From assembly GCA_013215055.1 (NCBI GenBank), contig JABSRQ010000010.1:62001-126000 (forward strand): 64,000 bases of DNA, read 5' to 3'. How positions within the stretch are numbered: position 1 is the stretch's first letter; the number at the start of each line of letters is the position of its first letter. A program made the position numbers and the translations under genes. Below, piece after piece: positions 1,920-61,628 of the stretch. Source of the DNA: Pseudomonadales bacterium. GTDB lineage: Bacteria > Pseudomonadota > Gammaproteobacteria > Pseudomonadales > DT-91. The notes beneath the pieces are model-generated. The model saw only the letters and a program-made list of their open reading frames with translations, was not told where the DNA came from and did no database searches.

Positions 1920-3965
1920 TTATGCTGCTTCTTTCTCTTCAGGCAAGGTGAAACCAGCTACCGAGTTACGTAATTCGGTTGCCATATCGGCAAGGTTACC
2001 GATGGAGCGTGCAGTTGCTGTTGTACCGGCGTTAGTTTGCTGGGTGATCTCTTGGATAACGTTCATCGTATTCGAGATATGACCTGCAGATGCTGCTTGC
2101 TGACGTGCCGCATTGGATATGTTCTGGATCAAGTCTGCCAGTTCCTGCGATACTTTCTCGATCTCTTCCAGAGCCATACCTGCATCCTGTGCCAGTCTAG
2201 CACCACGTACAACTTCCGCCGTGGTTTGTTCCATCGAGATGACCGCTTCATTGGTATCTGATTGAATCGTTTTAACCAGTGCTTCAATCTGCTTGGTTGC
2301 AGCAGATGAACGTTCTGCCAGACGCTGTACTTCATCCGCAACTACTGCGAATCCGCGACCGGCATCACCAGCCATCGACGCTTGAATAGCCGCATTCAGT
2401 GCCAGGATGTTAGTTTGATCGGCGATGTCGTTGATCAGGGATACGATATCTCCGATCTCTTGCGAGGATTCACCGAGGCGCTTGATACGTTTTGCCGTAT
2501 CTTGAATCTGCTCACGGATAGTATCCATACCGTTGATGGTGTTTTGTACCACTTCGGCACCGCGGTTGGCGATTTTTACCGAGCGCTCTGCTACCTGAGT
2601 TGATTCGGCGGCGTTTGCAGATACTTGATCGATGGTCACTGCCATCTCGTTAACAGCTGCCGATGCACCGGCGATTTCCTGGGCCTGATGCTCGGAAGCT
2701 TCGGCAAGATGTAATGCAGTGCTTTGCGTCTCTTCAGCAGCGTTAGATACTCTTAACGCGGTGTCGTTTATTTGTGATACCAGGATACGTAGTTGATCGA
2801 TGGTAAAGTTAATCGAGTCTGCAATAGCACCGGTGAAATCTTCGGTTACTGTAGCGGTCGCGGTTAAATCTCCGTCGGCTAAATCGGCCAATTCATCAAG
2901 TAGACGTAAGATAGCTTGTTGGTTACGTTCGTTGGTAGCACCCGTTTCAGCTAAGCGTGTACGTGTATTTAAGAAAATTTGCACACCAATCAAACCGCCG
3001 AATAAAACCAGCGCCAATGCAAAGAATGCTGCAGTTTGCACGGTTAATGTACGGTTTTCACCCAGGTTATTAATATTATCTGATAACTGACTGGTCTCTT
3101 CCATCATGATCGGAGAATCAACCAGGATCTCATCTGCAGCTTCATGGACTTTTTTCAAGTCAGGAGAAGCCTGGAAAATATCATCAACCGAGGTGGTGAT
3201 AAATTCAAATAGCTTGGCGATTTCTTTTAGCGCCTGTCTTGCTTCCTGATCCTGTACGCGCTTGATACCCATCGCGGCATTACCATTAATCATACTGTTT
3301 AGCACTTGACCAAAGGTTGATGCATCCGTATTAAATTGGTCGGCTGCTGAATCTGTTCCTGAGCCACCGGCTAACATTTTATCAACATTGGCTTTGATAC
3401 GTTCTGCACGCCAAGTTTGTTTCTGCGCTTGAGCCACCTGATCGGATGATGCGCGGCTATCAATCAAGATATCCACAACAGTGTCATACTTCTGCTGTAG
3501 TTCAGGGATCGAAGCAGAGAGTGTGCTGGCCACTTCGTGTAAGAATAATACCCTGGCCTTATTGGCATAGATCGTTTGTGAAGATGAATCTACACGCTTC
3601 CAAACTTTTTCTAAACTCACCAAACCTTTAGGTAATTGATCGGCTAATGGGGGTAAGCCCTCTGCAATTATACCCGTTGAAAGCTTCGCAACTTCTACCG
3701 CAAATTCACGGCGAACACGTTCCAGCTCTTCAAATGCGGTTTGCTTTCCTTCTGCTGATTCACGTGAATGTGTTGATATCTGCTGAGCCAATACACGCAT
3801 ATCACTGGTTATTTCCAGATACTCCGCATCATTGCCTGCATCACTTACTACCTGAACAATATTCCAAACAAGGCCTATTGCTGCTACTAATAGAAACGCA
3901 AGCAAAGCAACAACATTTTTGTTGCTTGTCTGGTTTGCAATCATCGTGGACGATGTAGTGCTCAT
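1920..3965 (-). CDS. pilJ: PilJ, type IV pilus methyl-accepting chemotaxis protein
   Basis: Inner-membrane chemoreceptor of the Chp system, thought to sense pilus-related signals and feed PilI and ChpA. A first membrane segment lies near residues 15-40, a periplasmic helical sensor region follows, a second membrane segment near 305-335, a HAMP-like region, then a long cytoplasmic coiled coil. The conserved hairpin tip is obvious ([14 protein letters not shown] followed by [18 protein letters not shown]). I chose the ATG at 3965, which has AGGAG six bases upstream, over the TTG and GTG just before it; this gives 681 residues, close to the Pseudomonas protein. Confidence 0.95.
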
Positions 3966-57317: not shown

Positions 57318-57929
57318 ATGGCCATAGATTACCGCAAGGCTTTTTATCAGATCAGTGCCGAAAAAGTCTCTCAATGCCCCGAAGATACAGGCTATGAAGT
57401 CGCCTTTGCCGGGCGCTCCAATGCGGGTAAAAGCTCAGCGATCAATGCACTGACCGACAACAAAAAGCTGTGCAGAACCTCCAAAACCCCTGGGCGTACC
57501 CAATTAATCAACTTTTTCCAGCTCGATGAAGAGCGCCGCCTAGTGGATTTGCCAGGTTACGGCTACGCCAAGGTACCCGAGGCAATGAAGCTCAGATGGC
57601 AGAAACACCTCAATGAATACCTGCAGGAAAGAGACTGCCTACGTGGATTAGTGCTGGTGATGGATTTACGCCACCCATTGCAAGACTACGACAAGATGAT
57701 TATTGACTGGTGTACCGCCAGTGACCTCCCCCTGCATCTATTGTTAACCAAGTCTGACAAGTTAAAGCCCAATGCCGCCAGAAACCAGTTATTTCAGATT
57801 AAAAAACAGCTTGAAGTTTATGGCCCTGGCATTAGCTTGCAGTTGTTTTCTTCTTTGAAAAAATCCGGCAAAAAAGAATTAGAGGCTGTATTAGACGGTT
57901 GGTATGGCTCTGCGGATGAAGCCGAATAA
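57318..57929 (+). CDS. engB: EngB/YihA, ribosome biogenesis GTPase
   Basis: A 203-residue GTPase needed for 50S assembly and division. Motifs are G1 [15 protein letters not shown], the switch region [12 protein letters not shown]3 [13 protein letters not shown] and G4 LLTKSDKLK, with the SLFS-like G5 region [14 protein letters not shown] near the end. Length is normal. It is followed by a candidate small RNA, whose terminal hairpin would also terminate engB. Confidence 0.97.
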
Positions 57930-57957: not shown

Positions 57958-57984
57958 GAACCAAATAGCAAAGCCACGTTCTTA
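57958..57984 (+). promoter_or_regulatory. Candidate promoter of the small RNA downstream of engB
   Basis: GAACCA (57958-57963) and TCTTA (57980-57984), spaced by 16 bases, fit the general form of sigma-E/AlgU-type promoters (GAAC...TC..A). A sigma-70 reading, TTGAAC with a poor -10, is weaker. Transcription would begin about 57991. Confidence 0.4.
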
Positions 57985-57990
57985 TTACCT

Positions 57991-58091
57991 GATAGTGGCT
58001 GAAACGTAAGGTTCCCTAAGCTTTTACGTTTCAAGAGTTGTGGAACAACTCATTTGTGCCGGTGATACTCCCCAGTATCACCGGCTTTTTT
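57991..58091 (+). ncRNA. Candidate three-hairpin small RNA between engB and polA
   Basis: About 100 bases that fold into three successive perfect hairpins. The first has a 10-bp stem TGAAACGTAA / TTACGTTTCA (58000-58009, 58024-58033) with a loop exposing TTCCCT. The second is GAGTTGT / ACAACTC (58035-58041, 58045-58051) with a GGA loop. The third is the terminator. A promoter-like sequence lies upstream. The engB-polA gap holds Spot 42 (spf) in E. coli and ErsA in Pseudomonas aeruginosa, so position supports an sRNA. The strand here is that of engB, unlike spf, which follows polA. An engB 3' end is the alternative. Confidence 0.55.
58058..58091 (+). terminator. Strong intrinsic terminator of the small RNA and engB
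   Basis: A 12-bp perfect stem GCCGGTGATACT (58058-58069) and AGTATCACCGGC (58074-58085) with a CCCC loop and six T (58086-58091). The T run is on the plus strand only, so it does not serve polA. Confidence 0.95.
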
Positions 58092-58197: not shown

Positions 58198-58749
58198 ATG
58201 AAGACCCTTTTAAAAATAATCGCCATCAGCTGCCTTGGCCTTAACATCTCGGCCTGCAAACCCGAGTTTAAAATTCTTCACCCGCATATTATTTATTATG
58301 GTGACAGCCTGTGTACGGAAAATTATTCACCCAATAAACTCACCGCCACACAACGTTTAGGCATCCCGGAGAATTGTAAATATGGCCGGCCTATGCGGGA
58401 TATCGCAGAAATTTCCAGCAATTACACGCTCGCATTTCTGGCGATGGGAACCAATGATGCCCGTTTAGGGGTTTCTATAGAGGCCTTTTCGTTGCACTTA
58501 AATGATTTATTAAGCAATACCAGCGCCACCGTAGTCTGTGTATTACCCAATATCGTCAGCCGCATTAACACCTCGGCGGTAAGAGCGGAAATGGCCAATC
58601 AATGTGTGAATATTATCGATCCACAAAAAGAATGTGATGTAGGCCCTCGGTTTGTGGATGGGCTACATTATACCGAGAAAGACCATGTGGGCATGGCGAG
58701 CTGTATTCAGAAGGCCATGACAGCCTTCGATAACGATGAACTTTTATAA
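58198..58749 (+). CDS. SGNH/GDSL-type hydrolase, predicted lipoprotein
   Basis: A 183-residue protein. The N-terminal signal ends in a lipobox ISAC with Cys20. Hydrolase blocks are in the right order: GDS (35-37, nucleophile Ser37), GTND (84-87) and DGLH (154-157, Asp and His of the triad). This is a small SGNH-hydrolase fold acting probably in the periplasm on an ester or acetyl group; the substrate is unknown. It sits alone between the small RNA and the convergent polA (two bases apart). Confidence 0.8.
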   Translation: MKTLLKIIAISCLGLNISACKPEFKILHPHIIYYGDSLCTENYSPNKLTATQRLGIPENCKYGRPMRDIAEISSNYTLAFLAMGTNDARLGVSIEAFSLHLNDLLSNTSATVVCVLPNIVSRINTSAVRAEMANQCVNIIDPQKECDVGPRFVDGLHYTEKDHVGMASCIQKAMTAFDNDELL

Positions 58750-58751
58750 GC

Positions 58752-61517
58752 TTAGTGCGCCTCATCCCAGTTATCACCCACACCCACATCCACCAATAAA
58801 GGCACGGCTAAATCGGCGGCGGATTGCATCTGCTCTTTGATACCTTCGCAGAATGCCTCCACTTGAGATTCTGCCACTTCAAAAATCAGTTCATCGTGCA
58901 CCTGCATAATCATCGCCGCATCAAAATCACTTTGCGCCAACCAAGCTTGTACATTGATCATCGCCTGCTTAATCACATCTGCGGCCGTACCCTGCATAGG
59001 GGCGTTAATCGCGGTACGTTCGGCACCAGCGCGTTTCATGCCATTGCTGGATTTAATCTCGGGTAGATAAAGCCTGCGCCCCCGTAACGTTTCTACATAA
59101 CCATCCTCTATGGCCTGAGCGCGGGTTTCGTCCATATAGGTTTTAACCCCAGGATATTTGGCAAAATATTTACCAATATAAGCCTGCGCCTCACCTCGGC
59201 CAATCTTCAATTGTTTAGCCAAACCAAAGGCCGACATGCCATAAATCAAACCGAAGTTAATCGCCTTGGCACTGCGACGCTGATCGATAGTCACCTCATC
59301 AACCGTCACACCAAACACCTCGGCAGCCGTGGCCTTATGTACGTCTTCACCATGACTAAACGCATTTAACAGACCTTCGTCATGGGATAAATGCGCCATG
59401 ATACGTAATTCAATTTGGCTATAATCGGCCGCCACCAGTTTCTTACCTTCGGGAGCAATAAAGGCCTGACGAATGCGACGGCCCTCTTCCGAGCGAATAG
59501 GGATATTCTGTAAATTGGGATTAGTCGATGATAAACGCCCGGTTGCCGCTACAGCCTGTTGGTAGGATGTATGCACTCGACCGGTAGTTACATTTACCTG
59601 CTGAGGCAGCGCATCGGTGTAGGTAGATTTCAGTTTGGAGAAACTGCGATATTGCATGATAATCGCGGGTAATTCGTGATCATTAGCCAATTCCTGCAAT
59701 ACGGCCTCGGCGGTAGATGGCTGACCCTTTGGGGTTTTTTTGATGACTGGGATTTCCAGCTTTTCAAACAAGATCACCTGTAATTGTTTCGGTGAACTTA
59801 AGTTAAACTCCTCACCCGCCACGGCAAAGGCCTGCTGTTCCAGCTCTTTACAACGTTGATCCAACTCTATGGATTGTTTGGCCAATAAGTTGCTATCGAT
59901 TAATGTGCCGTGATGCTCCATCTCGGTTAATACATCAATTAACGGCACTTCTAATTGCTGAAATACCGCTTTTTGTTTTTCCAGATCCGCCAAATCCTCC
60001 CATAAAACCGCATGTAAACGCAGCGTAATATCGGCAGCTTCGGCCGCATAAGGGGCAGCCTGCTCCAGTTCAATCTGGTTAAAGCTCAGCTGTTTCTTGC
60101 CTTTACCGGCGATATCTTCAAGACGAATGGTTTTAAGATCCAGATATTTCTGCGCCAACGATTCCAGATCATGACGACTGGCCGTACTATTAAGCACATA
60201 AGATTCCAGCATAGTATCGAAGGCGATACCACGTAGATGAATGCCGTGATGGCGTAATACATGTGCATCATATTTCAGGTTCTGGCCAACTTTGGCTTTT
60301 TTGGCATCTTCTAATAAGGGTTTTAACCGCGCTAAAACATCATCTCTATCTAGCTGTTCAGCTGCGCCTAAATAATCATGTGCCAGTGGAATATACGCAG
60401 CCTCTCCTGCTTTAACCGCCACCGATATACCCACAATCTGCGCCTGCATATATTCAGGGCTGGACGTTTGTATATCAAAGGCGAATAATTCGGCGGCCTG
60501 ACATTTATCTAGCCAGCGCTGAAAATCAGCTTCGTTTAAAATGGTTTGATAATCGGTTTCTATCACCGCGGCCACAGGCTTTTTGGCTTTAGCCGCCGTA
60601 GTGCCGGATGCCGACATGCCGTTATCGCCGTTCTCCAGCGCCTTTACCCAGGTTTTAAAACCCATTTCTTCAAATAAGGCCAATAAAGCCGCATCATCCG
60701 CTTCTTTATTCACCAGTTCCTGTACTTGCTCTGGCAGCTCCACATCACATTTGATGGTCGCCAGCTCATAGGAGAGATAGGCTTTGTCTTTTTCAGCGGC
60801 TAATTTTTCTGGTAATTTTTTTGCACCTCTTAAGGTTAATTCACGCACAGGTTCTAAATCGGCATAAATCGTATCCAGAGAACCTATACCCTGCAATAAA
60901 CCCAGCGCGGTCTTTGCACCCACACCAGCAACACCGGGAATGTTATCGACCTTATCACCCATCAACGCGAGGAAATCGATGATTAAATCGGCCGGAATAC
61001 CAAATTTATCAATCACACCTTGAGGGTCCATCACGGTATCCGTCATGGTATTCACCAATGTGACATGCTCATTAACCAGCTGGGCCATGTCTTTATCGCC
61101 GGTTGATACCACAACAGGAATTTTCAGCACCGTGGCCTGCGCAGCATACGTGCCAATCACATCATCGGCCTCAACACCTTGTATAACAATCAGCGGAAAA
61201 CCCATGGCCTTGATAATATTGTGAATAGGCTCAATTTGTGGGCGCATATCATCCGGCATAGGGGGGCGATTAGCCTTGTATTCAGGGTAAATATCATCCC
61301 TAAAAGTCTTACCCTTGGCGTCAAAAATCACCGCGATACAGCTATCGGGATAAGCCTTTACCAGCGAGCGCAGCATATTAATCACGCCTTTAACCGCACC
61401 TGTAGGTTGGCCGCTGGCATTCTCCAAAGGTGGCATCGCATGAAAGGCGCGATATAAATAGGAGGAACCATCAACCAAAACCAGAGGCGCTTTTTCTGCA
61501 TTGTTGCTGTCAGACAT
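58752..61517 (-). CDS. polA: DNA polymerase I, with a degenerate 3'-5' exonuclease site
   Basis: A 921-residue PolA with 5' nuclease (about 1-300), 3'-5' exonuclease-like (about 330-520) and polymerase (about 525-921) domains. Polymerase motifs are intact (VAADYSQIELRIMAHL, RRSAKAINFGLIYGMSAFG, MIMQVHDELIFEV). In the proofreading domain, by alignment to E. coli numbering, Asp355, Asp424 and Tyr497 are kept, but Glu357 is Gln350 (codon at 60470-60468) and Asp501 is Ala494 (60038-60036). Proofreading is probably weak or lost. The ATG at 61517 (MSDSNNAEKAPLVLVDG) was preferred to an upstream GTG. Confidence 0.97.
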   Translation of the reverse strand: MSDSNNAEKAPLVLVDGSSYLYRAFHAMPPLENASGQPTGAVKGVINMLRSLVKAYPDSCIAVIFDAKGKTFRDDIYPEYKANRPPMPDDMRPQIEPIHNIIKAMGFPLIVIQGVEADDVIGTYAAQATVLKIPVVVSTGDKDMAQLVNEHVTLVNTMTDTVMDPQGVIDKFGIPADLIIDFLALMGDKVDNIPGVAGVGAKTALGLLQGIGSLDTIYADLEPVRELTLRGAKKLPEKLAAEKDKAYLSYELATIKCDVELPEQVQELVNKEADDAALLALFEEMGFKTWVKALENGDNGMSASGTTAAKAKKPVAAVIETDYQTILNEADFQRWLDKCQAAELFAFDIQTSSPEYMQAQIVGISVAVKAGEAAYIPLAHDYLGAAEQLDRDDVLARLKPLLEDAKKAKVGQNLKYDAHVLRHHGIHLRGIAFDTMLESYVLNSTASRHDLESLAQKYLDLKTIRLEDIAGKGKKQLSFNQIELEQAAPYAAEAADITLRLHAVLWEDLADLEKQKAVFQQLEVPLIDVLTEMEHHGTLIDSNLLAKQSIELDQRCKELEQQAFAVAGEEFNLSSPKQLQVILFEKLEIPVIKKTPKGQPSTAEAVLQELANDHELPAIIMQYRSFSKLKSTYTDALPQQVNVTTGRVHTSYQQAVAATGRLSSTNPNLQNIPIRSEEGRRIRQAFIAPEGKKLVAADYSQIELRIMAHLSHDEGLLNAFSHGEDVHKATAAEVFGVTVDEVTIDQRRSAKAINFGLIYGMSAFGLAKQLKIGRGEAQAYIGKYFAKYPGVKTYMDETRAQAIEDGYVETLRGRRLYLPEIKSSNGMKRAGAERTAINAPMQGTAADVIKQAMINVQAWLAQSDFDAAMIMQVHDELIFEVAESQVEAFCEGIKEQMQSAADLAVPLLVDVGVGDNWDEAH

Positions 61518-61628
61518 AATATGATGTTCTTTTTCTATCACTAAAAATTTGCCCACAGTGTAACATTGCTAGAATTATATTAAGCAGTGTTTTACTCTCT
61601 GCTTTGGACAAATGCTTAAGGAGTGCAT

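Follow-up and report, generated by a model that had tools for sequence, protein, structure and literature searches.

The gap between polA and engB encodes Spot 42 (spf) in enterics and vibrios, from a promoter controlled by cAMP-CRP, and ErsA (Pseudomon-1, RF01719) in Pseudomonas. ErsA is an RNA of ~100–130 nt with C-rich stretches, an intrinsic terminator and a sigma-E/AlgU-type promoter; it depends strictly on sigma-22/AlgU (PMC7565897), and together with Hfq it acts on known targets (PMC7565897, PMC8575079), its action on algC, oprD, amrZ and anr being Hfq-dependent. In Xanthomonadaceae, sX13 adjoins polA, contains three hairpins with C-rich loops and uses these loops to repress mRNAs with G-rich motifs near their translation starts, Hfq not being needed (PMC3771888). 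Among the small RNAs (sRNAs) present in multiple copies, LhrC1-7 of Listeria are induced by envelope stress and expose UCCC loop motifs (PMC4132741, PMC11697453), LhrC pairing with the SD region of lapB via CU-rich motifs (PMC4132741). For sibling sRNAs, reviewed copy numbers reach six for csRNAs and five for Qrr (PMC4211561), while LhrC is known in seven copies and FopS of Bacteroides, a large dispersed paralogous family, in 12–15 per genome (PMC11697453). The SmelA075/SmelA099 family of Rhizobiales also consists of dispersed paralogs, several per genome, with varying numbers of hairpin modules and with mobile elements nearby; it has been proposed to block ribosome-binding sites (PMC3927594).

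The locus considered here lies in a window of 64,000 nucleotides (the whole stretch of DNA analyzed) from a Pseudomonadales bacterium, and carries in the engB-polA gap a predicted sRNA gene that a first-pass annotation, made from the letters of the window, had described as ErsA-like. The gap, the sigma-E-type promoter and the C-rich loops agree with that description; the absence of a match to RF01719 and the strand, which is the reverse of the one used by the locus RNA in relatives, do not. The window RNA has a 5′ end and hairpins different from those of ErsA, and lies on the engB strand, whereas the ErsA-type loci examined here are on the polA strand. No paralogs are described in the ErsA literature consulted, whereas the window RNA has at least 26 copies. 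As for Hfq, hfq genes are present in the host. Unlike Spot 42, the window RNA has a sigma-E-type promoter, not a cAMP-CRP-controlled one, and the Spot 42 Rfam model gave no match in the window at either the gathering or a permissive threshold. No sequence relation to sX13 is shown, and the text consulted in PMC3771888 describes neither a sigma-E promoter nor a multicopy family for it. LhrC differs in being LisRK-driven, Gram-positive, unrelated in sequence and limited to 5–7 copies, and FopS and SmelA075/SmelA099 have other sequences and belong to other lineages. The ~26 copies counted here in a draft assembly, 18 of them with an intact sigma-E-type promoter, exceed the 2 to 15 copies of the sRNA families compared, which come from a non-exhaustive literature search.

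Organization and structure of the predicted sRNA gene

The engB/yihA GTPase gene (57318..57929, plus strand; ORF with a PF01926 match) is followed on the same strand, at a distance of 29 bp, by the sRNA unit, and polA (58752..61556, minus strand; PF00476 plus exonuclease domains) closes the gap. Between the sRNA and polA there is a small ORF with a lipoprotein-like start (58198..58749, plus strand), for which no Pfam match was found. The unit opens with a sigma-E (RpoE/AlgU)-type promoter, GAACCA-N16-TCTTA (57958..57984, plus strand), whose elements had been placed correctly in the first-pass annotation: GAACCA at 57958–57963, a spacer of 16 bases and TCTTA at 57980–57984, on the engB strand. 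The sRNA itself (~101 nt, 57991..58091, plus strand) has a predicted start at ~57990–57991. It consists of an unpaired 5′ leader, GATAGTGGC (57991..57999), which is kept across copies and relatives; hairpin 1 (58000..58033), with the C-rich loop UUCCCUAA as the proposed pairing site; hairpin 2 (58035..58051), GAGUUGU-GGA-ACAACUC, a candidate CsrA/RsmA site; and hairpin 3 (58058..58091), an intrinsic terminator of 12 bp with a CCCC loop and six T.

The segment 57991–58091 folds at -41.3 kcal/mol, compared to a mean of -20.8 for shuffled sequences (z = -6.78; 0 of 200 shuffles as stable). The earlier description of three perfect hairpins is right for hairpin 2 (7 bp) and hairpin 3 (12 bp), but not fully for hairpin 1, since its 9 perfect base pairs are followed by a bulge and the C-rich loop. 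The C-rich character of the hairpin 1 loop was corroborated, and that of the terminator loop, which had passed without mention, was added to it, so that the window RNA exposes UCCC/CCCC in the apical loops UUCCCUAA and CCCC, as do most paralogs. Searches of Rfam at gathering and permissive thresholds gave no credible family for the window RNA; CyaR, IsrM and others scored far under the cut-off and were discarded.

Copies in the host genome

The host genome (G000) is a draft assembly of 7.19 Mb in 460 contigs, 84.7% complete. When the unit was compared to it by BLAST, 16 places with 73–100% identity were found, which had in common the promoter, leader, hairpins and terminator, the homology stopping at both edges of the unit. 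A covariance model gave 32 matches with E < 0.1, 26 of them with E < 1e-7. This multiplicity was absent from the first-pass annotation. Among 30 catalogued copies, 18 had an intact promoter (GAAC and TC..A kept at the right spacing), two were near to it and the remainder were decayed. Hairpin 2 is missing in a few copies, of which those at L075 and L077 still have C-rich loops and the promoter. The copies are found downstream of unrelated genes or in the gaps between them, in either orientation and mostly with their own promoter; their flanks are mostly unrelated, with few shared duplications, and the unit was absent from the phage, plasmid and viral collections searched. Contamination as the source of the copies is argued against by the presence of five of them on one 104-kb contig. 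Most of the large copy-bearing contigs match the window in GC and tetranucleotide profile; for short contigs the correlation is poorer, falling to 0.64 at the lowest, and a foreign origin of a few copies is therefore conceivable.

Conservation of the structure and of the promoter

Compensatory change in the stems had been suggested earlier as a check on the sRNA proposal, and it was found: two-sided changes occur in 15 of 24 pairs, distributed over all three stems, and in 7/7 pairs of the consensus stem of hairpin 1. In an alignment of 20 sequences, the 24 consensus pairs were 96.2% paired and the covariation amounted to 0.435, versus 0.205 in shuffles (0/500) and ≤0.154 in slid controls. Among 18 copies the GGA loop was invariant (mean pairwise identity 1.00) and the leader nearly so (0.94); the -35 and -10 elements had 0.81 and 0.88, versus 0.47 in the spacer between them and 0.44 and 0.33 in the upstream and downstream flanks. 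In relatives, GGA is retained with hairpin-2 stems that are wholly different (G005) or differ (G002), and the G001 copy has the corresponding loop without GGA. The earlier proposal of an independent sRNA gene is supported, with a promoter-to-terminator unit of its own, many copies and covarying stems; judged from the alignments, selection acts on the unit as on an RNA gene.

Concerning the promoter, the assignment to the sigma-E type agrees with its conservation across paralogs and with its resemblance to the region preceding rpoE in the same genome. RpoE is encoded in 5/5 genomes of the host's family searched. In the host, where the RpoE match exceeds the family cut-off, GAACTT-N16-TCACA precedes the start of this match by 85 bp, and the rpoE upstream region of G001 contains GAACTT-N16-TCTAA; by their sequence, both motifs agree in type with the sRNA promoter. 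Taken alone, the motif is non-specific in the host genome, where 17 of its 46 matches are at sRNA copies and the rest mostly at one unrelated repeat. The pattern GAACY-N17-TCYTAT was rejected as a specific sRNA marker because that repeat matches it too. The repeat, GAACCATTTACGCGTTAATGCTTCTTAT and variants, occurs ~26 times in the host and mimics a sigma-E promoter (example sites C410:14897, C165:556 and C46:86507).

Relatives and the engB-polA gap across the order

Fewer copies than in the host were found in relatives: three in G005, one, at engB, in G001, and, in each of G002 and G004, one copy at engB in addition to tandem arrays at ~260-bp intervals. No copy was found in G003, and a search of 244 genomes from the order gave no strong match outside the host's family. 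The arrays (L039 5024–6899 and L040 4842–6977, from G002 and G004) contain four to five copies, three or four of them ~260 bp apart, and sigma-E-type promoters precede copies.

Orthologs of engB were located in 206/214 genomes of the order. A simple home-made detector, which calls a locus RNA from a sigma-E-type promoter plus a terminator at sRNA distance, found an RNA convergent with engB in 27 of 69 engB downstream regions and one on the engB strand in 3, against 15 calls in 2760 shuffled strands (0.5%). CCCC is present in all 27 convergent RNAs, although in a few the sole C-run is the terminator stem, and C-runs are inside hairpin loops in 55% of cases versus 14% in shuffles. The earlier view of the gap as an sRNA locus can then be extended to that of a recurrent home, with a sigma-E-type, CCCC-bearing hairpin RNA in 27/69 sampled gaps. 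Rfam names the Pseudomonas-like locus RNAs ErsA, but not the others tested (RF01719 scores 134 bits in L137 and L134 and has no match in L113 and L116), and sequence homology between branches is weak. The distribution of detector calls and the Rfam naming make ErsA look like a single branch within a larger set of sigma-E-type locus RNAs. At L180 and L181 (G205, G184), two weak model matches fall within one engB-polA gap, perhaps tandem locus RNAs.

Compared with G001, G002 and G004, where the locus RNA and engB are convergent, the window copy is inverted. In trees of ~140 nt, which are weak, all the host copies formed one clade and the window copy grouped with the dispersed copies C24:45918 and C424. 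For both reasons, and within the limits of such short trees, the window copy is not favored as the ortholog of the ancestral engB-locus copy; the simplest account is amplification within the lineage, with a copy re-inserted, or inverted in place, at engB. At L183 (G054, ~231–322), from another family of the order, an engB-locus RNA is also on the engB strand, so inversion may have occurred more than once.

Proposed function and alternative explanations

The reading preferred here, to which a probability of about 0.7 is given, is that of a sigma-E-driven, trans-acting sRNA with C-rich loops, analogous to ErsA, sX13 and LhrC and amplified in this lineage. The gene would come from the set of polA-engB-locus sRNAs of the order, and would have been amplified and dispersed in the lineage. 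It would be transcribed from its own sigma-E-type promoter, from ~57991 to the hairpin-3 terminator, and envelope stress would induce it, through RpoE, along with its many paralogs. By analogy, we propose that the RNA, once induced by sigma-E, pairs through its C-rich loops with start regions rich in G: the loops of hairpins 1 and 3 would be seeds for G-rich stretches (SD-like, UUAGGGG or GGGA) near the start codons of envelope or other mRNAs, with translation being blocked in the manner of sX13 and LhrC. In a crude generic scan of 230 translation starts, GGGG was not enriched and the signals were weak: UUAGGG (2.2% vs 0.3%) and, from its simple home-made duplex part, duplexes of the window SL1 loop at ≤ -11 kcal/mol (3.0% vs 0.7%). 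Two Hfq genes are present in the host (C428:305468 and C200:50284).

A further possibility is that CsrA/RsmA is bound by the GGA loop of hairpin 2. This idea of the first-pass annotation gained from the invariance of the loop in 18 copies, its retention in relatives with different stems and the several csrA genes of the genome, and such binding is plausible. On small contigs, CsrA paralogs (PF02599) were observed 0.6–1.7 kb from divergent sRNA copies, at L218 (C271) 993–1364 and 3122–3331, L220 (C406) 2534–2725 and L219 (C110) 3408–3680, C271 and C406 having duplicated flanks in common; a csrA-sRNA linkage on accessory DNA is possible.

It could be argued that the RNA is mainly a sponge for CsrA/RsmA (or another protein), with many copies contributing one GGA hairpin each and the C-rich loops being secondary. 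The GGA loop is indeed the most conserved element, it outlives changes of stem in G002 and G005, and some of the 8 csrA-family matches of the genome are on small contigs with sRNA copies. Even so, this explanation is unlikely: CsrA/RsmA-sequestering sRNAs of the CsrB/RsmZ type carry many GGA hairpins, whereas the window-type RNA has only one; the G001 copy is without GGA in that loop; L075 and L077 keep C-rich loops and promoter without hairpin 2; and the csrA-linked copies are few, with two of the three contigs sharing duplicated flanks.

A little less probable still is a dispersed repeat, that is, a mobile or gene-converted element (MITE/REP-like) with hairpins that serve spreading and not regulation. 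It would account for at least 26 dispersed copies with homology ending at the unit edges and mostly unshared flanks, for the several decayed copies, and for an inverted window copy nested among paralogs. The selection seen is, however, gene-like (the promoter hexamers, the leader and the loops are retained, the spacer varies freely and the stems compensate), a single copy is at engB in G001 while G002 and G004 also keep one there, and none was found in phages, plasmids or viral contigs. As to the hairpins being no more than the 3′ UTR plus terminator of engB, and the sRNA at most a processing product, the short same-strand distance of 29 bp past engB would fit, but copies elsewhere follow unrelated genes or lie between them, in either orientation, and mostly possess a promoter of their own, and in G001, G002 and G004 the locus RNA and engB converge; this makes it very improbable.

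Within the preferred reading of a sigma-E-driven sRNA with C-rich pairing loops, a more ambitious version is speculative and rather doubtful as a whole. According to it, a promoter-to-terminator cassette would move or be copied as a unit, forming one of the largest bacterial families of trans-acting sRNAs (at least 18 sigma-E-driven genes), most members of which would have both C-rich loops for mRNA pairing and a GGA hairpin for CsrA binding; envelope stress would then produce mRNA silencing and CsrA titration at once.

Significance

The locus offers a concrete case of a putative stress sRNA amplified to an unusual number of copies, some apparently live and others decayed, in one genome. Because these are side by side, the models put forward for sibling sRNAs, which concern dosage, ultrasensitivity, target diversification and selfish spread, become testable. 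The comparison across the order suggests that the polA-engB gap is a home of sigma-E-driven sRNAs with CCCC loops, of which ErsA is one branch, and this gap-wide set bears on the question raised in PMC3771888 of whether the polA-locus sRNAs of different bacteria act alike.
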